47,907 nucleotides of DNA. Origin: an uncultured Eubacteriales bacterium. Its GTDB lineage: Bacteria; Bacillota; Clostridia; Christensenellales; Aristaeellaceae. Both the position numbers and the translations under genes were made by a program. Location: contig CACYGB010000008.1 in NCBI GenBank assembly GCA_902773895.1, forward strand, positions 1 to 47,907. The letters are read 5' to 3'. Below the pieces are notes generated by a model. The model was given only the letters and a program-made list of their open reading frames with translations, searched no databases and had not been told where the DNA came from. Of the stretch, positions 35,478-46,736 are shown piece after piece. The first letter of the stretch is position 1. Each line of letters starts with the position of its first letter.

Positions 35478-35588
35478 ACCTTATCCAGAGCGGCTGAGGG
35501 ACTGGCCCGATGAAGCCCGGCAACCGGCGTGTCACAGCGCAAGGTGCCAATTCCAGCAGCGTGATTTCCACGCTGGCAGATAAGGCGC
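35478..35588 (+). promoter_or_regulatory. SAM-I riboswitch (S box)
   Basis: P1 stem CCTTATC...GATAAGG encloses the S-box core: CAGAGCGGCTGAGGGACTGG, then CCCGATGAAGCCCGGCAACC and AAGGTGCCAATTCC. SAM binding would favour the terminator that follows and switch off metK, i.e. feedback by its product. Confidence 0.97.
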
Positions 35589-35608: not shown

Positions 35609-35640
35609 CCGCTTGTCTGTCGTCAGACAAGCGGTTTTTT
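35609..35640 (+). terminator. Riboswitch terminator before metK
   Basis: Eleven-base stem (35609-35619 with 35624-35634) followed by six T; the expression platform of the SAM riboswitch. Confidence 0.92.
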
Positions 35641-35689
35641 GCGGCCCGGATGGTGTTCAATCCAAGAAATGCAAAGGAGAGAAAGAACC

Positions 35690-36865
35690 ATGCGAACCCT
35701 GTTTACCTCTGAATCCGTTACGGAAGGACATCCCGACAAAATCTGCGACCAGATTTCCGACGCCGTGCTGGACGAACTGCTCCGCCAGGACCCCGATTCC
35801 CGGGTGGCCTGCGAAACCTGCGCCACCACCGGGCTCATCCTGGTGATGGGCGAAATCACCACCAAGGGCTATGTGCCCATCGCCGACATCGTGCGCAAAG
35901 TGGTGAATGAAATCGGCTACGACCGGGCCAAGAAGGGCTTTGACGGCGAATCCTGCGCGGTGCTCACCGCCGTGCATGACCAGTCCCCGGACATCGCCCA
36001 GGGCGTCGACGCCGCCCTGGAAACCCGTCAGGAGGCGGAAAACGAAACCGGCGCCGGGGATCAGGGCATGATGTTCGGCTTCGCCTGCGACGAAACCCCC
36101 GAAATGATGCCCATGCCCATCGCCCTGGCCCACCGGCTCACCCGGCGCATGGCGTACGTCCGTAAGAGCGGTATCTGCCCCTGGATGCGGCCGGACGGCA
36201 AAAGCCAGGTCACCGTGGTGTATGAGGACGGCCGGCCCGTGGCGGTGGACACCGTGGTGATCTCCACCCAGCACGACGACACCGTGACCCATGACGAAAT
36301 CGAACAGGCCATGATCGAGCAGGTGATCCGGCACGAAATCCCGGCGGAATTGCTGACGAAGGACACGAAATACTTCATCAATCCCACCGGCCGTTTCGTG
36401 GTGGGCGGCCCCGCAGGGGACAGCGGCCTGACCGGACGCAAGATCATCGTGGATACCTACGGCGGCTACGCGCCCCACGGCGGCGGCGCTTTCTCCGGCA
36501 AAGACCCCACCAAGGTGGACCGCAGCGCCGCATACGCCGCCCGGCACGCCGCCAAAAACGTGGTGGCCGCCGGCCTGGCCCGGCAGTGCGAAATTGCCCT
36601 GGCCTACGCCATCGGCGTGGCCAAGCCGGTCTCCTTCCAGGTGAATACCCGGGGCACCGGCGTGATTCCCGATGACCAGATCGCCAAACTGGTGGAAAAG
36701 GTGTTCGATATGCGGCCCGACGCCATCATCCGCCGGCTGGATCTGCGCCGGCCGATTTACCGGCAGACGGCGGCCTACGGCCATTTCGGCCGCACGGACG
36801 TGGATTTGCCCTGGGAGCATGTGGACCAGGTGGACGCGCTGAAACAAGCCTGGAAAGAACTGTAA
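35690..36865 (+). CDS. metK: S-adenosylmethionine synthetase
   Basis: 391 residues from the ATG at 35690, behind AAAGGAG. MetK makes SAM from methionine and ATP. Family motifs are [20 protein letters not shown] near residue 8-27 (the catalytic His), [10 protein letters not shown] and [17 protein letters not shown]-type [19 protein letters not shown]. Length is normal. It is under a SAM riboswitch, and a SAM-dependent methyltransferase gene follows with its own promoter. Confidence 0.98.
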
Positions 36866-41473: not shown

Positions 41474-42541
41474 ATGAGTGAAATCAAAAAAACGCCCGGC
41501 ACCGGCGGCGACCGGTATCTTCCTTTTGACGAACGCACCGGCGATAAATCCGTGGTGTATTTCACGCGGGATCTGTCCGCCGAAGGGCTGAAAAAGCTCT
41601 ACGAACGGGTGAACGAAAATATCGACGGCAAGGTGGCTGTTAAGCTGCATACCGGCGAACAGCACGGCCCTAACATCATTCCCCGGGAATGGGTGAAAAA
41701 CCTGGTGGAAAAGGATCTGCCCGGCGCCACTATTATCGAAACCAACACGTATTATGAGGGCGACCGCTATACCACCGAGCAGCACCGGGAAACGCTGAAG
41801 GTGAACGGCTGGACCTTCTGCCCCGTGGACATTACCGACGCGGAAGGCACCGCCATGCTGCCGGTGAAGGGCGGCAAATGGTTCACCGAAATGAGCGTGG
41901 GCAAGTCCATGCTGCAGTATGATTCCCTGGTGGTGCTGACCCATTTTAAGGGCCACACCATGGGCGGCTTCGGCGGCAGCAACAAGAACATCGGCATCGG
42001 CTGCGCGGACGGCCGCATCGGCAAGGGCATGATCCACACCAAGGCAGGCGCCGCCATGCCGGATGAAATGTGGAGCATCGCCGAAGAAGAACTGATGGAG
42101 CGGATCGCCGAATCCACCAAGGCCACCGTGGACCACTTCGGGCAGAAGGTGACCTTTGTGAACGTGATGCGCAACATGAGCGTGGACTGCGACTGCGCCG
42201 GCTGCGCGGCGGAAAAGGTGGTTACGCCCAACGTCGGCATCCTGGCTTCCCGGGATATTCTGGCGCTGGACCAGGCCTGCATCGACCTGGTGTTTGCCCT
42301 CAGCGAGGAAGACGGCGCCGTGCTGCGGGAGCGCATCCTCAGCCGGCACGGCCTTCGCCAATTGTCCTACATGAAGGAATTGGGCATGGGCAATGACCGC
42401 TATACCCTGGTGGACACGGACCACGGCGATCAGGCGATCCAGCCCGCGGATGCCGTGCAGGGTGTGGTTCCCTTTGTGGAGCTGCCGGAAACGGCCCTGC
42501 GCCGGGCCCAGGCGCTGGCCGCCATGGAAGAGGAAAACTAA
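41474..42541 (+). CDS. DUF362 domain protein
   Basis: 355 residues behind GAAAGGAAGG. DUF362 members carry the pattern KVAVKLHTGEQHGPNIIPREWV, then VVLTHFKGHTMGGFGGSNKNIGIGC and VDCDCAGCAAE (residues near 237-247), the last a short cysteine cluster. Related proteins are linked to iron-sulfur or ferredoxin functions, but no biochemical role is established here. It stands alone under its own promoter. No ferredoxin-type CxxCxxC domain is attached. Confidence 0.9.
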   Translation: MSEIKKTPGTGGDRYLPFDERTGDKSVVYFTRDLSAEGLKKLYERVNENIDGKVAVKLHTGEQHGPNIIPREWVKNLVEKDLPGATIIETNTYYEGDRYTTEQHRETLKVNGWTFCPVDITDAEGTAMLPVKGGKWFTEMSVGKSMLQYDSLVVLTHFKGHTMGGFGGSNKNIGIGCADGRIGKGMIHTKAGAAMPDEMWSIAEEELMERIAESTKATVDHFGQKVTFVNVMRNMSVDCDCAGCAAEKVVTPNVGILASRDILALDQACIDLVFALSEEDGAVLRERILSRHGLRQLSYMKELGMGNDRYTLVDTDHGDQAIQPADAVQGVVPFVELPETALRRAQALAAMEEEN

Positions 42542-42560: not shown

Positions 42561-42596
42561 AAAACCGGTCGGAGAAAATCTCCGGCCGGTTTTTGC
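42561..42596. terminator. Bidirectional terminator between DUF362 and the TIM-barrel gene
   Basis: Hairpin with arms around 42563-42574 and 42580-42591, one mismatch, loop AAAAT, T run on the plus side and A-rich flank on the other. Confidence 0.85.
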
Positions 42597-42600
42597 GTGT

Positions 42601-43482
42601 TCAGCGCGCGTCTTTGGCGGCCTGATAATATGCCGCCAGCCGTTTTCCTACCTCCAGGGACAGTTCCACCGTCAGGTGCTTCATGTCCTGGGGCAGGCAG
42701 CGGCCGAATTCCTGGATCTCAAAGGTCAAATCGCCGGAATAACCGCTTTCGGCCAGGCCGCGCATGGCGTCCTGCCAGTCGATGGCGCCGAAGAAGGGCA
42801 GCAGGTGCTCATCGGCATTGCCGTGGTTGTCCTGCACATGGATGGCTTTCAGCCGGGAAGCGATGGCGTTCAGGTTCTGCCGGTGGCGCCCGCCGGTCAG
42901 GTTGGCGTGGCCGAAATCATAGCAAACGCCCACGTGCGCCGGATCCCCGAACGCGTCGCACAGATCGGTCAGCTCCGCGATGTCGGCGCAGTAAACGCCG
43001 GGGCGGTAGGCATAATCGTTTTCCAGCGCGATGCCGATGCCGGCCTCCCGGGCCGTGCGCACATGGCCGGCGTAATAAGTCAGGTTAGCCTGCCGGGAGA
43101 CGGCGGCGCTTTCCCCGTACACGGTGAAGGGATGGGTCACGGCCCAGCGGGCGCCCAGCATGGCGGTGCCCAGGATGCTGCGGCGGATCAGTTCCTCCAT
43201 CAGGTCAGATTGCGCCGTGCCCCGCTGGGCGTGCACGTCGTAGTAGGGCAGGTGGGACTGGTTGAAGCGGATCCCGCAGGCATCGGCCAGACGGCCGATG
43301 GAGCGCACGTACGCTTCCCATCCGTCGCCCCGGAGGGGAGATTCGGGGTTCATGGCCATGCAGAAATTGATGTCCAGCACCTTGTAGCCCGCTTCCGCGC
43401 AGGTGCTGATGCTGAATTCCACAGGCAGCCGCTGCCGGCCGCGCTGGAAAGCCACGATGTTGGTGGAAGTGGAAATCTCCAT
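42601..43482 (-). CDS. Xylose isomerase-like TIM barrel protein (sugar phosphate isomerase/epimerase family)
   Basis: 293 residues. AP endonuclease 2/xylose isomerase-like features are the start STSTNIVAFQRG, WAVTHPF, GIALENDYAYRPG (metal-binding Glu), CYDFGHANLTGG (Asp/His) and IHVQDNHGNADEHLLPFFGAIDW, then TFEIQEFG (Glu). These are the usual metal ligands of the family. The substrate is unknown. It follows the binding protein gene by 12 bases, so it may act on the imported compound, and is the last gene under the FMN riboswitch. Confidence 0.85.
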   Translation of the reverse strand: MEISTSTNIVAFQRGRQRLPVEFSISTCAEAGYKVLDINFCMAMNPESPLRGDGWEAYVRSIGRLADACGIRFNQSHLPYYDVHAQRGTAQSDLMEELIRRSILGTAMLGARWAVTHPFTVYGESAAVSRQANLTYYAGHVRTAREAGIGIALENDYAYRPGVYCADIAELTDLCDAFGDPAHVGVCYDFGHANLTGGRHRQNLNAIASRLKAIHVQDNHGNADEHLLPFFGAIDWQDAMRGLAESGYSGDLTFEIQEFGRCLPQDMKHLTVELSLEVGKRLAAYYQAAKDAR

Positions 43483-43494
43483 CTTTTTTTCTCC

Positions 43495-44787
43495 TCAGGG
43501 ATTGGCCCGCAGGTATTGGGCCAGCATGCCGCCCAGGTCGTCCTGCATCAGCTGCACCGTTTCCTCCACCGACAGGTCCTCTTCCAGCATATCGGAAATG
43601 TCGTTGATGATGCCGTAGTAGAAGTCCGCCGACGGCCCCACGGTGACGCTGCGCATGGTGTCCGGCGTTTCCGCCAGCTGGGTCAGGCCCACCTGGTACT
43701 GGGGATGCTCCCGCACCAGCTGCGCCCACACGTCGCTTTCCTCCGCCAGGGCGTTGGAGGGCAGGTAGCCCGTGCCCCGGGCAAAATCCGCCTGCACCGG
43801 GGCGCTGGTCAAAAACTGTTCCAGCTCCCACGCGGCGGCCTTGCGCGCGTCGCCGTGGTCAAACATGACCAGGCAGCTGCCCGACACCGTGGCGCCGGCG
43901 GCGGATTGCGCGTTGACCCTGGGATAGGCGGCGACGCCCAGTTCAAAAGCCCCGCCGATGCGCTCCGTCAGGGACGCGATGGAGGAGGAGGAGCTGGTCA
44001 TCACCAGCTGCCGGCCGGCCACGAATTCATCGGTGGAGCCGGACGCGTTCACCAGCGCGCCGGAGGCGTACAGATCCTTCCAGGCCTGCAGGAAGGCGGC
44101 CAGGGCGCCGTTGTCGATGCAGGCAAGCCGGGCGGCGGTGCCTTCCGTGCCGTTGTGCTGGTCCACCAGGTCGCTGCCCAGCTGGCCCAGCCAGTTGGCC
44201 AGGGTCGGCGTGTTGGGAATGGCCGCGTACACGGTAACGCCGTCCCGGGCCAGGGAGGACAGGGCCGCGATGTCCTGCAGCGTCTGCGGCGCGGAGAAGC
44301 CGGCGCTGTCCAGGGCGGTTTTGTTGTAATAGGTCACGGTGGTGGAGGTGGCGAAGGGCAGGCCCAGCTGCACCCCGGCCAGCTGCCAGTTGGCCATGGC
44401 AGGCGCCAGCAGGGTCAGGGATGTGCCGGGAAAATCCGCCAGGGCTTCCGGCACGGTGTAGGCCGTTTCGGCGGCGGCGTAGGAAACCTTGCCCGTGGCG
44501 TCCAGCTGCATGACGTCGGGCAGCACGTCGTACTGTTTTCCGGTCAGCACGCTGTTCATTTTGGACACCGCGTCGGCGTAGGCACCCTGGTACACCGCCT
44601 CCACCACGATGCCCTTGTCCTTGCCGACGGTTTCGTTGAACTGCCGGACGTAGCCTTCCATCAGCACGCCGGCTTCCTCGGACATGGAATGCCACAGGGT
44701 GATGCGCACCGGGCCTTCCTGGGCCAGGGAAACGCTGAAAACACAGAGTAAAACGGACGATAACAGGAGAGCGAGCAGTTTTTTCAT
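43495..44787 (-). CDS. UgpB-like ABC substrate-binding protein
   Basis: 430 residues. A signal peptide (MKKLLALLLSSVLLCVFSVSLA) precedes the CUT1 binding-protein fold: ITLWHSMSEEAGVLMEGYVRQFNE, PDVMQLDATG, LPFATSTTVTYYNKTALDSAG and the ending LQDDLGGML-type helices. Members bind sugars, glycerol 3-phosphate or its diesters. No lipobox is present (Cys is not placed at +1), as in the BMP protein above. It is encoded after the permeases, an unusual order, under an FMN riboswitch, so its ligand could be a flavin or flavin-derived compound (inference). Confidence 0.9.
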   Translation of the reverse strand: MKKLLALLLSSVLLCVFSVSLAQEGPVRITLWHSMSEEAGVLMEGYVRQFNETVGKDKGIVVEAVYQGAYADAVSKMNSVLTGKQYDVLPDVMQLDATGKVSYAAAETAYTVPEALADFPGTSLTLLAPAMANWQLAGVQLGLPFATSTTVTYYNKTALDSAGFSAPQTLQDIAALSSLARDGVTVYAAIPNTPTLANWLGQLGSDLVDQHNGTEGTAARLACIDNGALAAFLQAWKDLYASGALVNASGSTDEFVAGRQLVMTSSSSSIASLTERIGGAFELGVAAYPRVNAQSAAGATVSGSCLVMFDHGDARKAAAWELEQFLTSAPVQADFARGTGYLPSNALAEESDVWAQLVREHPQYQVGLTQLAETPDTMRSVTVGPSADFYYGIINDISDMLEEDLSVEETVQLMQDDLGGMLAQYLRANP

Positions 44788-44841
44788 AAGAACAGATCCT
44801 CCTTGATTCAGTCAGCGGCTCCGGCCGCGGGAAAACGGAAA

Positions 44842-45663
44842 TCAGCCCACCAGCGCGCCGCCGCTTAAGGAGCGGGTGATCTGCCTGCGCAGCGCCAGGA
44901 ACAGCACGGCCGCCGGTACCATGGCCACGGCGGAGGCGGCCAGCACCATCTCGTAATTGGTGCCTTCGATGGTGGTCAGCATGGTGATGCCCACCTGCAC
45001 GGTGCGCATGGCGTTGGTGTTGGTGACCAGCAGCGGCCACAGGTACGCGTTCCACTGGGCGATGAAGCTTTGCAGGAACAGGGTGGCCAGCGCGGGCATG
45101 CACAGCGGCGTCAGGATGGAAACGATGAAGCGCATATCGCCGCAGCCGTCCATCAGTGCGGCTTCCCGCAGGGGCCGGGGCGACATCATGAACTGCTGCC
45201 GCAGCATGAACATCTGCGATGCGCCCACAAACGACACGATGCCCATGCCCAGGTAGGTGTCCAGCAGGCCCAGGCGGGAAACGGTCTGGTAATTGGTGAT
45301 GATCACCGTATCGGCGGGCAGCATCATGGTGCCCAGCAGCAGGAAGAACAGGGTTTTTTTCCCCCGGAAATCAAAGAACACGAAGGCATAGGCCGCAAAA
45401 ACGGCAAGGACCAGGCGAATGACGGTGCTGGAGGCCGCCACGATGAAGGAATTGAGGAAGTAGCGGAGCATGGGCACCTGGGTGAAAACGGCGCGGAAAT
45501 TGTCGGTGTGCAGGAAGGACGCAGGCAGCACGGTGGGCGGATAGGCGATGAACTCCGCCGGCGTTTTGAACGCGCCCATCAGCCCGTAAAAAACGGGAAA
45601 AAGCACCAGGCATCCCAACAGGATGCACAGCAGGGTCAGGCCGGTGTCGCGGATGCGTTTCAT
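44842..45663 (-). CDS. CUT1-type ABC permease (UgpE-like)
   Basis: 273 residues from the ATG at 45663, overlapping the preceding gene by 4 bases. Six membrane segments and the coupling-loop EAA motif REAALMDGCGDMRFIVSILTPL (near 190-210) match carbohydrate uptake family 1 permeases. The N-terminus resembles UgpE/MalG (GLTLLCILLGCLVLFPVFYGLMGAF). It forms the pore with the UgpA-like partner. No ATPase gene is in the operon. Confidence 0.92.
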   Translation of the reverse strand: MKRIRDTGLTLLCILLGCLVLFPVFYGLMGAFKTPAEFIAYPPTVLPASFLHTDNFRAVFTQVPMLRYFLNSFIVAASSTVIRLVLAVFAAYAFVFFDFRGKKTLFFLLLGTMMLPADTVIITNYQTVSRLGLLDTYLGMGIVSFVGASQMFMLRQQFMMSPRPLREAALMDGCGDMRFIVSILTPLCMPALATLFLQSFIAQWNAYLWPLLVTNTNAMRTVQVGITMLTTIEGTNYEMVLAASAVAMVPAAVLFLALRRQITRSLSGGALVG

Positions 45664-46526
45664 TGGTAATGCACCCGCTTTCTTTCCATCAGGAACAGGA
45701 TCAGCGTGCAGGTCAGCGTCAGCAGGAAGGTGACGATGCTGACGCACGCCGCCAGGCTGTAATTGGCCGAGGAGTATCCGGCGGTGTACATCAGGTAGAT
45801 CATGGTCAGGGTGGAACGGGACGGGCCGCCCTGGGTCAGAATCAGGATGGGGCCGCTGGTCATCATGGCCTGGATCATGTTGGTGCACAGCACGTACAGC
45901 ACGGTGGGGGAGATCAGGGGCAGCTGAATGGCAAACAGGGTGCGGAATTTGCCCGCGCCGTCCAGCTCCGCGCTGCCCAGGATGTCCGGCGGGATGGAGC
46001 GGAAGGCGGACAGGAACAAAAGGAAATTGAACCCGATCCCCATCCACACCGTCAGCATCAGGATGCCGGCCATGGCGGTGTGCCGGTCCTCGTACCAGCC
46101 GATGTTCAGCCCCAGCACGTAATTGAGGTAGCCGACGGAGGGGTTCAGCAGCACCTTGAACACCAGCGTGATGGACGCCATCGACACGGCCATGGGCAGC
46201 GTCAGCATGGTTTCGTACACCGTGTGCCCCCGGCGGACGGGCGCGCACAGAAACGCCAGGAAAACGGTGATCACCAAAGTGACGGGCACGTTGATCAGGG
46301 CCAGACGCAGGGTGTTCCCCAGGGCGATGGAAAATTCCCGCCGGGAAAAGAGATAGCGGTAATTTTCCCAGCCGGCAAACCCGGTGATTTCACCCCGGAA
46401 ATTGACGTTGGACACGCTTTGCGCCGCCGTTTTCAAAAACGGATAATAAACGAATCCAACGGCGAAAACCACCATAGGCAGCAGGAACAGGTACGGCTTC
46501 GCCGCTTTTTTGACGCGTTCGGACAA
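45660..46526 (-). CDS. CUT1-type ABC permease (UgpA-like)
   Basis: 288 residues from a TTG at 46526, which lies after AGGAGG and a T run. Six membrane segments and the EAA loop ILGSAELDGAGKFRTLFAIQLPLISPT (near 180-205) are typical of UgpA/MalF partners. The N-terminus is short (MSERVKKAAKPYLFLLPMVVF). It is the first gene behind the FMN riboswitch, whose terminator hairpin includes its ribosome binding site. Confidence 0.92.
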   Translation of the reverse strand: MSERVKKAAKPYLFLLPMVVFAVGFVYYPFLKTAAQSVSNVNFRGEITGFAGWENYRYLFSRREFSIALGNTLRLALINVPVTLVITVFLAFLCAPVRRGHTVYETMLTLPMAVSMASITLVFKVLLNPSVGYLNYVLGLNIGWYEDRHTAMAGILMLTVWMGIGFNFLLFLSAFRSIPPDILGSAELDGAGKFRTLFAIQLPLISPTVLYVLCTNMIQAMMTSGPILILTQGGPSRSTLTMIYLMYTAGYSSANYSLAACVSIVTFLLTLTCTLILFLMERKRVHYQ

Positions 46527-46558
46527 GAAAAAACCTCCTGAAAAGAGCCTTCAGGAGG
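46527..46558 (-). terminator. FMN riboswitch terminator that also covers the ribosome binding site
   Basis: On the minus strand the arms 46558-46550 (CCTCCTGAA) and 46542-46534 (TTCAGGAGG) pair, followed by a run of T. The 3' arm holds the AGGAGG for the TTG start at 46526, so the same hairpin can stop transcription and block translation. Confidence 0.85.
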
Positions 46559-46577
46559 AAACAAGCAAAGAGCGGTT

Positions 46578-46687
46578 TTCTTCTTCCATCCAGACTGTAC
46601 TGTCGGCTCCGGAATCGGACCGGATCGGCCTTTCGGCTCGCGGGCTATACCGCCGGTAGGGAATTGCACCCTGCCCTGAAGAACTCT
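46578..46687 (-). promoter_or_regulatory. FMN riboswitch (RFN element)
   Basis: Read on the minus strand, the conserved RFN core is present: CAGGGCAGGGTGCAATTCCC, then ACCGGCGGTA, GCCCGCGAGC, CCGATTCCGGAGCCGACAGT and CAGTCTGGATGG, with an outer stem CTTC/GAAG. FMN binding would favour the terminator downstream, lowering expression of the UgpA/UgpE/UgpB/TIM-barrel operon when flavin is plentiful. Confidence 0.95.
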
Positions 46688-46707
46688 TGTCTATTCGATT
46701 CGTCCCC

Positions 46708-46736
46708 ATTATAGTGCGCTGCGCGGCGCGTGTCAA
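46708..46736 (-). promoter_or_regulatory. Consensus promoter of the FMN-controlled operon
   Basis: On the minus strand TTGACA (46736-46731) and TATAAT (46713-46708), 17-base GC-rich spacer: an exact consensus promoter about 20 bases before the aptamer. Confidence 0.93.

Follow-up and report, generated by a model that had tools for sequence, protein, structure and literature searches.

RibU (ypaA/fmnP) has its riboswitch, genome family, and presumed task in common with the CUT1 operon analyzed here. It is the S component of an ECF transporter, whereas in the present system a soluble binding protein serves two CUT1 permeases, and the two replace one another. RibU of Listeria has been reported to import FMN and FAD (available portion of PMC9973259). 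RibXY of the Chloroflexi is an ABC flavin importer controlled by an FMN riboswitch and missing an ATPase gene of its own (available portions of PMC3766115 and PMC4418817), the same combination as in the present operon, although RibXY is described as kin of the thiamin transporter ThiXYZ and the present system is UgpABE-like. RfuABCD of spirochetes likewise imports riboflavin by an ABC mechanism and uses a soluble binding protein. By family assignment alone, RfuA (Bmp type) and RibY are placed outside the family of the binding protein described here, which matches PF13416 alone in Pfam. UgpBAEC and the dinucleotide (UpG)-binding protein of Thermus share with it the CUT1 fold and a Tyr-Ser-Ser-Tyr phosphate quartet, but the present system differs in carrying an FMN riboswitch and in lacking both the glycerol-binding Glu, Arg, and Trp pair and an adjoining ATPase gene. 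The enzyme encoded in the operon resembles CbiR and endonuclease IV in its TIM barrel and in conserved putative metal ligands; it falls under the CbiR NCBIfam equivalog cut-off (38.8 versus 105 bits), and its substrate is not established. No CUT1 flavin importer was present among the literature matches listed, as far as their titles and abstract openings disclose.

The operon lies on the minus strand at positions 42601 to 46736 of the window (the whole 47,907-nucleotide stretch of DNA analyzed), and the span given in the initial annotation was correct. The features of the locus are as follows.

46954 onward, plus strand: neighboring PEP-carboxykinase-like gene, named by inspection of its own sequence
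46708 to 46736, minus strand: sigma-70-type promoter (TTGACA-17-TATAAT) upstream of the aptamer, 12/12 consensus positions
46574 to 46687, minus strand: FMN riboswitch aptamer (RF00050, the RFN element; full-length match to model positions 1-138 at 114.8 bits in cmscan)
46528 to 46558, minus strand: putative expression platform from a sequence scan, an 11-pair hairpin (46558 to 46534) followed by T6
45660 to 46526, minus strand: permease 1, UgpA-like, TTG start (PF00528, 5.6e−14; best NCBIfam match UgpA, 148.7 bits, under cut-off)
44842 to 45663, minus strand: permease 2, UgpE-like (PF00528, 8.6e−10; NCBIfam UgpE, 155.4 bits, under cut-off)
43495 to 44787, minus strand: UgpB-like solute-binding protein with a signal-peptide-like start (PF13416, 8.4e−32; best NCBIfam match UgpB)
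42601 to 43482, minus strand: AP_endonuc_2 TIM-barrel enzyme (PF01261, 1.5e−22)
42561 to 42594, minus strand: probable operon-end terminator inferred from the sequence, a one-mismatch hairpin followed by a T-rich stretch
41474 to 42541, plus strand: neighboring DUF362 gene on the other flank of the operon

The aptamer scored far above the RF00050 gathering score (114.8 versus 66.2 bits; E value, 3.9e−26) and was the sole RFN found in the assembly (84% complete, 137 contigs; completeness values are rounded throughout). This score and the recurrence of the element before 30 of 40 related operons rule out a chance match. The initial annotation had read a consensus promoter, an FMN aptamer, and a terminator ahead of the operon and had named a covariance-model search as a check; the promoter and a hairpin with T-run are indeed present, and the search gave this strong match. 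Among 30 RFN loci, 28 had a promoter matching at least 10 of 12 consensus positions; L173 matched at 8, and L073 lies at a contig end. The sequence AGGAGG closes the 3′ arm of the platform hairpin, 7 nucleotides upstream of the permease 1 TTG start, so that the hairpin may act as a transcription terminator and a Shine-Dalgarno-masking helix in one. The scanned region held three promoter-like sites compared with 1.1 (standard deviation, 1.0) in shuffled sequences and five terminator-like sites compared with 4.5 (standard deviation, 2.5); by count, therefore, the hairpin is not above chance. The folded leader had a shuffle z-score of −0.29, and its free energy is thus uninformative by itself. 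Position and recurrence nevertheless speak for a real platform, as judged from sequence: an aptamer followed by a hairpin and T-run was seen in 29 of 30 loci, L064 excepted, albeit without a shuffle control. The operon-end hairpin was absent from the mismatch-free terminator scan.

The operon has the hallmarks of a CUT1 ABC importer in Pfam, namely a PF13416/PF01547-type binding protein and two PF00528 permeases. NCBIfam equivalog scores for UgpA, UgpE, and UgpB (148.7, 155.4, and 80.3 bits) were far under the cut-offs of 335, 297, and 411 bits, and the genes are therefore called UgpABE-like; together with the missing glycerol ligands, these scores rule out UgpABE proper. Inspection of both flanking genes identified no ATPase gene beside the operon. 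The initial description of two UgpA/UgpE-like permeases and a UgpB-like binding protein without an adjoining ATPase thus agrees with Pfam, NCBIfam, and the neighboring genes, and its suggestion of an MsmK/UgpC-type ATPase encoded elsewhere found candidates in all 42 genomes tested. As these included five RibU-only genomes, the ATPases are not specific to CUT1 genomes. Use of a shared MsmK/UgpC-type ATPase is the best reading, the pairing itself being inferred.

Recurrence of the operon behind RFN elements had also been put forward as a check. Among 300 genomes of the family to which the window belongs (uncultured Clostridia/Christensenellaceae), scored for up to five candidates per genome, 40 encoded a close relative of the binding protein, and in 30 of these 40 the CUT1 operon was preceded by an RFN, which shared its contig in 28 cases and was separated from it by a contig break in 2. 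Two more distant operons also carried an RFN. In one of them, L173, it sits between permease 2 and the binding protein; just 137 bases were available upstream of permease 1, and an additional RFN there cannot be ruled out. On the tree, the RFN-link label requires three changes. In sequence set A3, L145 and L181 have starts lacking the signal region. Mis-binned contigs as the source of the link were rejected, since the same arrangement occurs in goat, sheep, roe deer, red deer, and horse assemblies. RibU was nearby at 30 of the 44 RFN loci compared, the CUT1 permease at 12, and neither at 2. These loci were not a random sample (the 30 best scoring plus 14 picked individually, with any match within ∼1.5 kb counted), and 12 of them themselves supplied the RibU profile. 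The RFN of G023 (L021/L235) has neither RibU nor a CUT1 permease nearby and is unexplained. L026, one of three RFN matches in G288, lies at a contig end without downstream sequence.

Lumazine synthase (PF00885) was detected in only 1 of the 300 family genomes and in 14/14 controls, and nearly all of these genomes must therefore import flavin. In the genome of the window (84% complete), neither lumazine synthase nor RibU (profile A1 at an E value of 1e−5) was found; absence of ribDEHA or ribU was among the points the initial annotation had proposed to check. With an FMN riboswitch ahead of it and no detected lumazine synthase in its genome, the operon meets the genomic criterion for a flavin importer, transport itself being inferred. 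Profile A1 recovers the RibU structure 3p5n at 2.5e−40. Matches better than 1e−15 were considered strong, and 15 weaker ones (2.9e−7 to 5.9e−6) were assumed to be other S components. A strong RibU was present in 246 of 300 genomes; the CUT1 binding protein accompanied RibU in 5 and occurred without it in 35, and 19 genomes had neither. When labels were shuffled within genera (nine genera compiled by hand, seven informative, g20 omitted), the overlap between CUT1 and RibU was 2 compared with 17.2 expected, and none of 200,000 shuffles was as low; g20 would contribute 3 overlaps compared with 2.7 expected. Two genomes with both systems, G141 and G257, have two RFNs each. All 12 RibU-free genomes with completeness of 90% or more and contamination of 5% or less carry the CUT1 operon. 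By computation, then, the CUT1 system stands in for the ECF transporter RibU in this family; the importer survey comprised these two systems only, and RibM, RfuABCD, RibXY, RibN, RibZ, and ImpX were not covered.

The predicted structure of the binding protein (pLDDT, 93.8) had UgpB and the dinucleotide-binding protein as its best Foldseek matches, the latter also being its top sequence relative in the PDB. The ligands of UgpB were taken from the available portion of PMC12718374, and positions were mapped via E. coli UgpB by motif, not via the Phaeobacter sequence. The phosphate-binding quartet (Y70, S148, S266, and Y341) was invariant in 51/51 binding proteins, whereas the glycerol ligands Glu, Arg, and two Trp were found in 0/51, with A97, T382, I/V/L190, and T/S193 in their places. 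The putative pocket is equally conserved in relatives without an RFN, so its residues alone do not mark it as flavin specific. The quartet is common to glycerophosphodiester- and dinucleotide-binding proteins, and a non-flavin phosphate ligand is consequently not excluded.

Riboflavin kinase (PF01687) had no match in 28 of the 35 CUT1-only genomes and was kept in 7, while FAD synthetase was present in 33/35, including the genome of the window. The FAD synthetase of G010 stops short of a kinase domain. By subtraction, the kinase is absent from 57 of 246 RibU genomes. CUT1-only and RibU genomes differed within genera g1 (0/15 versus 9/13 with the kinase), g12 (0/5 versus 2/5), and g38 (0/2 versus 2/5); no contrast was seen in g7 (2/2 versus 5/5 RibU-only) or g48 (3/3 versus 3/5).

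The cargo is very probably a flavin of some kind, although this is inferred without binding or transport data. A phosphorylated flavin is somewhat favored over riboflavin, again without binding data, given the conserved phosphate-binding residues and the frequent absence of riboflavin kinase. Of the initial proposal of riboflavin, a flavin nucleotide, or a glycosylated or degraded flavin, flavin uptake is thus supported by RFN recurrence and the RibU swap, with riboflavin the less likely form. A CUT1/UgpB-lineage ABC importer of phosphorylated flavin, controlled by an FMN riboswitch and replacing RibU, is considered the likely explanation. At low cytoplasmic FMN, the aptamer would be empty and the terminator/Shine-Dalgarno hairpin would not form, FMN-dependent control and its direction both being inferred; the permeases and the binding protein would then be produced, together with the TIM-barrel enzyme in operons such as this one that encode it. 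The secreted binding protein would capture FMN most likely, and FAD possibly, via its UgpB-type phosphate site. The two permeases would import the flavin with an MsmK/UgpC-type ATPase encoded elsewhere and shared with sugar importers. Imported FMN would be adenylated by FAD synthetase, and abundant FMN would switch the operon off. If true, this would represent a new flavin importer class built on a sugar-type ABC transporter, one that has taken the place of RibU in several gut and rumen genera unable to make vitamin B2. FMN as cargo would account for the survival of genomes with FAD synthetase but without riboflavin kinase. Which gut bacteria take which form of B2 would become directly testable, and genome-based B2 predictions relying on RibU alone would overlook the CUT1 lineages.

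The same importer could instead take up free riboflavin, recognized by its ribityl chain as CUT1 proteins recognize polyols, with an unrecognized riboflavin kinase explaining the apparent kinase loss in some genomes. This is possible but clearly less probable: hexitol binders are known among CUT1 proteins (available portion of PMC12718374), and imported riboflavin would be usable in the 7/35 CUT1-only genomes keeping the kinase, but the invariant phosphate quartet, the 28/35 genomes without a PF01687 match, and the kinase-less synthetase of G010 argue against it.

FAD is an unlikely but not negligible cargo. Here the TIM-barrel enzyme would be a phosphodiesterase/pyrophosphatase giving FMN and AMP. 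Its putative endonuclease IV/CbiR-like metal site (H77, H117, E154, D189, H192, H215, D224, H226, and E255) is invariant in 25/25 sequences, and CbiR of the same AP_endonuc_2 superfamily is a cobamide phosphodiesterase (available portion of PMC7733943). Compared with E. coli Nfo and its metal-ligand numbering, 7/9 ligands align to residues invariant in 25/25 and the other two are unmatched there; H77 was aligned separately, and E255 is proposed from its position. In G116, a type I phosphodiesterase/nucleotide pyrophosphatase occupies the place of the TIM gene, and a dinucleotide binder being the top PDB sequence relative of the binding protein also counts in favor of FAD. Against this, FAD synthetase is retained, and in the Foldseek ranking MJ1311 is followed directly by sugar epimerases. 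The enzyme could still be a sugar epimerase; a plain sugar isomerase appears doubtful in view of the endonuclease IV-like extra ligands. Of 30 RFN-linked operons, 16 have the gene and 14 lack it downstream of the binding-protein gene (fetched stretches only), which rejects the enzyme as a fixed partner and leaves its role in cargo processing undecided. Processing of the cargo, as first suggested, is possible but unproved.

The RFN was missing from 9 of the 40 operons, three of which adjoin catabolic genes. Six are in the genus of the window (G115, G164, G212, G225, G237, and G252), in whose genomes no RFN above the cut-off was found genome-wide. In the other three, from genus g20, an RFN-linked RibU is located apart from the operon, which has aldolase and dehydrogenase genes as neighbors. 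It is conceivable, but rather improbable, that every member of the binding-protein clade, from Clostridia through Spirochaetales, is flavin-nucleotide specific. RFN members would then feed cofactor synthesis in RibU-free auxotrophs, and RFN-less members, working with a metal-dependent TIM-barrel phosphoesterase, a DeoC/LacD aldolase, and alcohol dehydrogenases, would form anaerobic flavin-catabolic operons, a gene-class match to the aldolase and alcohol dehydrogenase found in the fin neighborhood of Clostridium scindens, which is induced by riboflavin. Also improbable is a non-flavin phosphate cargo (glycerophosphodiester, alditol phosphate, or dinucleotide) with a riboswitch captured for an indirect reason: the closest solved relatives do bind UpG, glycerophosphocholine, and glycerol phosphates, and the surroundings of RFN-less relatives include genes for GDPD, nucleotide pyrophosphatase, aldolase, and dehydrogenase, but RibU-free auxotrophs would be left without an importer among those searched, although every good-quality one carries the operon, and the tree shows the RFN link in three separate places, one of them with the RFN at another position within the operon.

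Within the leader of the CUT1 operon of the window (42601-46526, minus strand), the following sites were identified:

46736..46708, minus strand, promoter matching the consensus at 12/12 positions (site scan)
46574-46687, minus strand, full FMN riboswitch aptamer (RFN; RF00050, 114.8 bits)
15 nt 3′ of the aptamer, minus strand, hairpin of 11 pairs followed by six T (site scan)

The hairpin ends in AGGAGG, and the TTG start of permease 1 lies 7 nt further 3′; given this position, the hairpin may have a double role in stopping transcription and masking the ribosome site. Promoter-like sites in the region numbered 3 versus 1.1 in shuffles, and the count of terminator-like sites was not above chance (5 versus 4.5). 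Four genes follow the leader. The first two encode PF00528 permeases most similar to UgpA and UgpE, respectively; the third (43495-44787) encodes a binding protein of PF13416 closest to UgpB, and the fourth (42601-43482) a TIM-barrel protein of PF01261. Permease and binding-protein scores were far under the Ugp equivalog cut-offs. No ATPase gene adjoins the operon in the window; the flanking genes, PEP-carboxykinase-like upstream and DUF362 downstream, both lie on the opposite strand. The initial annotation, in which a promoter, FMN aptamer and terminator had been read ahead of CUT1-type genes lacking an ATPase, was confirmed. Elsewhere in the window, a SAM riboswitch (35478-35586, plus strand; RF00162, 91.7 bits) lies 5′ of a gene (35639-36865) that reads by sequence as S-adenosylmethionine synthetase, an ordinary arrangement.

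The draft genome that contains the window (G000) is 2.43 Mb in 137 contigs and 84% complete. Among 300 genomes of the family, 267 carried RFN and 94 had binding-protein matches at 1e−20. Close binding-protein relatives (54 to 78% identity) were found in 40/300 genomes, delimited by a gap below which the next matches shared at most 34% identity, a partial second copy in G248 excepted. Close relatives with named records were labeled as uncultured Clostridia and Christensenellaceae, and ruminant gut was a frequent sample source. The recurrence in relatives expected from the initial annotation was observed, as an RFN-headed operon was present in 30/40 genomes: in 28, including the window, a single contig carried RFN directly 5′ of the operon, and in two (G196 and G179) RFN and permease 1 were at the end of one contig and the remainder of the operon at the start of another. 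In G155 the contig begins within the operon. The remaining nine operons lacked RFN: three belong to genus g20 and six to the genus of the window, and no RFN above the cut-off was identified anywhere in the genomes of those six. From 30 RFN leaders (28 from the family plus two further loci, L173 and L181), promoters with at least 10/12 matches were identified in 28 and a hairpin with T-run in 29. In four related genomes (L066, L068, L071, and L073), NiCo riboswitches were located ∼2.6 kb past the gene for the binding protein.

Lumazine synthase (PF00885), detected in 14/14 controls, was found in only 1/300 family genomes; nearly the whole family should therefore be without riboflavin synthesis and dependent on flavin import. 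RibU, the S component of the ECF flavin importer, was searched for using a profile (A1) built from twelve S components located 3′ of RFNs in the family, which recovers solved RibU structures (3p5n, 2.5e−40). Strong matches (better than 1e−15) were obtained in 246/300 genomes, and 261 matched at 1e−5, 15 of them weakly. Overall, 241 genomes carried RibU alone, 35 the CUT1 operon alone, 5 both and 19 neither, so that 35/40 operon-bearing genomes lacked strong RibU; whether such genomes lack ribDEHA or ribU was a check proposed in the initial annotation. Three of the five dual genomes belong to g20, where the operon lacks RFN; the other two (G141 and G257) have two RFNs each, one near each system. 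Going by the listed values, all 12 genomes with ≥90% completeness and ≤5% contamination that had no strong RibU carried the CUT1 operon, and none had neither system. Shuffling of labels within nine genera (seven informative, g20 excluded) gave 17.2 expected overlaps versus 2 observed, with 0/200,000 shuffles as low. In the window's genus, CUT1 was present in 15/29 genomes, RibU in 13/29 and both in none. Among 44 RFN loci (the 30 best scoring and 14 chosen by handle), RibU was nearby in 30, a CUT1 permease in 12 and neither in 2. One genome, G023, has an RFN with neither nearby (L021/L235). The sole genome with lumazine synthase, G049 (contig C111), lacks both RibU and the CUT1 operon; its RFN is ∼3.2 kb ahead of the lumazine synthase gene on the same contig and strand.

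The available part of a survey of bacterial flavin importers names RibU, RibM, ImpX, RibN, RfuABCD, RibXY, RfnT, RibZ, and RibV (PMC4418817). No FMN-riboswitch-controlled sugar-type or CUT1 importer was identified among the matches listed from open-access PubMed Central literature. The inferred flavin transport would make this an ABC flavin importer belonging to a class of transporters for which, as far as could be found, flavin cargo is not known.

The binding protein was modeled (pLDDT 93.8); its PDB relatives are UgpB proteins and a Thermus protein whose structure was determined in complex with the dinucleotide UpG. In the accessible portion of PMC12718374, the UgpB phosphate is coordinated by two Tyr and two Ser residues, strictly conserved in proteins binding glycerophosphocholine or UpG, though not in those binding glucose. 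The putative equivalents, mapped by motif through E. coli UgpB (Y70, S148, S266, and Y341), were each present in 51/51 sequences, and all 51 have other residues in place of the Glu, Arg, and two Trp by which UgpB binds the glycerol part. One of the two adjacent Gly residues of UgpB was kept, although which of the pair contacts the ligand is unresolved. Because the quartet is retained and the glycerol residues are replaced, the predicted ligand should carry a phosphate yet be other than glycerol phosphate.

Riboflavin kinase (PF01687) was absent from 28/35 CUT1-only genomes, G000 included, versus 57/246 RibU genomes (Fisher P = 9e−11, not corrected for kinship). FAD synthetase (PF06574) was retained in 280/300 genomes and 33/35 CUT1-only genomes, again including G000, with G272 and G137 the exceptions; in G010 it stops short of a kinase domain. 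Kinase presence in CUT1-only versus RibU genomes was 0/15 versus 9/13 in g1, 0/5 versus 2/5 in g12 and 0/2 versus 2/5 in g38, but the contrast did not hold in g7 (2/2 versus 5/5) or g48 (3/3 versus 3/5). An organism that keeps FAD synthetase without riboflavin kinase can adenylate FMN but not phosphorylate riboflavin, and thus needs FMN. Import of a phosphorylated flavin by a vitamin B2 auxotroph would not be odd, since Listeria RibU is reported, in the part of PMC9973259 available, to take up FMN and FAD. Five RibU genomes from the window's genus (G069, G231, G268, G276, and G280) encode a stand-alone riboflavin kinase immediately adjacent to RibU. One lies 1.4 kb from RibU in G030, and G094 and G134 have RibU without a detectable flavokinase.

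The TIM-barrel gene was located 3′ of the binding-protein gene in 16/30 RFN-linked operons, the window included, and is split into two frames in G104. The protein model (pLDDT 90.6) was closest to MJ1311, followed by sugar epimerases. Nine His/Asp/Glu residues, potential equivalents of the endonuclease IV metal site, were invariant in 25/25 sequences; seven have a direct counterpart in the alignment to E. coli Nfo, H77 aligned via HMMER with another endonuclease IV, and E255 corresponds by position only. The best NCBIfam match, under the cut-off, was CbiR, described in the available text of PMC7733943 as a cobamide phosphodiesterase of the same superfamily. The enzyme could be a phosphoesterase with FAD or FMN as substrate, and an epimerase is not excluded. 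The gene's place is taken by a type I phosphodiesterase/nucleotide pyrophosphatase in G116, and an alpha-L-fucosidase (G186) or acetate-kinase-family protein (G137) can also follow the binding protein.

In the binding-protein tree (51 sequences), RFN-linked family members formed one clade of 31 rows (support 97/96), one of them undetermined for RFN. L181 and L173, also RFN-linked, were placed among distant relatives, and the RFN label required three changes, three rows not being counted. In L173, RFN occupies a different operon position, with the gene for permease 2 on one side and that for the binding protein on the other. Should the riboswitch have joined this transporter family on more than one occasion, flavin as the cargo would be the plain reason; the alternative is losses from one common ancestor. 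A T-box leader (L173, 3589-3877; 94.8 bits) lies directly 3′ of that RFN-preceded binding-protein gene.

The putative pocket is retained in the relatives without RFN; across all 51 sequences, mean top-residue frequency was 0.90 at author-chosen pocket positions versus 0.65 elsewhere. The g20 operon adjoins iron alcohol dehydrogenase, DeoC/LacD aldolase, and zinc alcohol dehydrogenase genes (Pfam, L164), and similar aldolase/dehydrogenase genes, or a GDPD gene (L178), were near Spirochaetales operons. These RFN-less operons could serve either uptake of another phosphate compound or flavin degradation. They resemble, by gene class only and without sequence comparison, a riboflavin-induced neighborhood in C. 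scindens containing RibF, a class I aldolase, and an alcohol dehydrogenase, as given in the accessible part of a 2026 preprint (PMC12934955). The flavin source of 11 distant genomes is open too, since lumazine synthase is present in none of them and strong RibU in one. Homologous transporter operons at L159, L164, L165, L170, L171, L172, L174, and L175, most of them followed by genes for an aldolase and/or an alcohol dehydrogenase, may represent an uncharacterized catabolic operon; some have their own MalK-type ATPase.

MsmK/UgpC-type ATPases were found in 42/42 genomes searched, including five RibU-only genomes. G000 has nine, the best sharing 61% identity with the ATPase of a Sphaerochaeta locus (L174), whose gene lies, by Pfam, directly ahead of homologous permeases. 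One of the two best G000 ATPases is in an apparent maltodextrin operon, read from sequence as a regulator, two permeases, and a glucanotransferase; around the second, where gene picking was poor, no transporter gene was recognized. Since an ATPase gene precedes permease 1 in homologous Spirochaetales/Clostridiaceae operons (L170, L172, L174, L175, L178, and L180, by sequence), the operon of the window would fit loss of a dedicated ATPase and use of a shared one. FMN control of an ABC importer that has no ATPase gene is already described for RibXY in the available part of PMC3766115.
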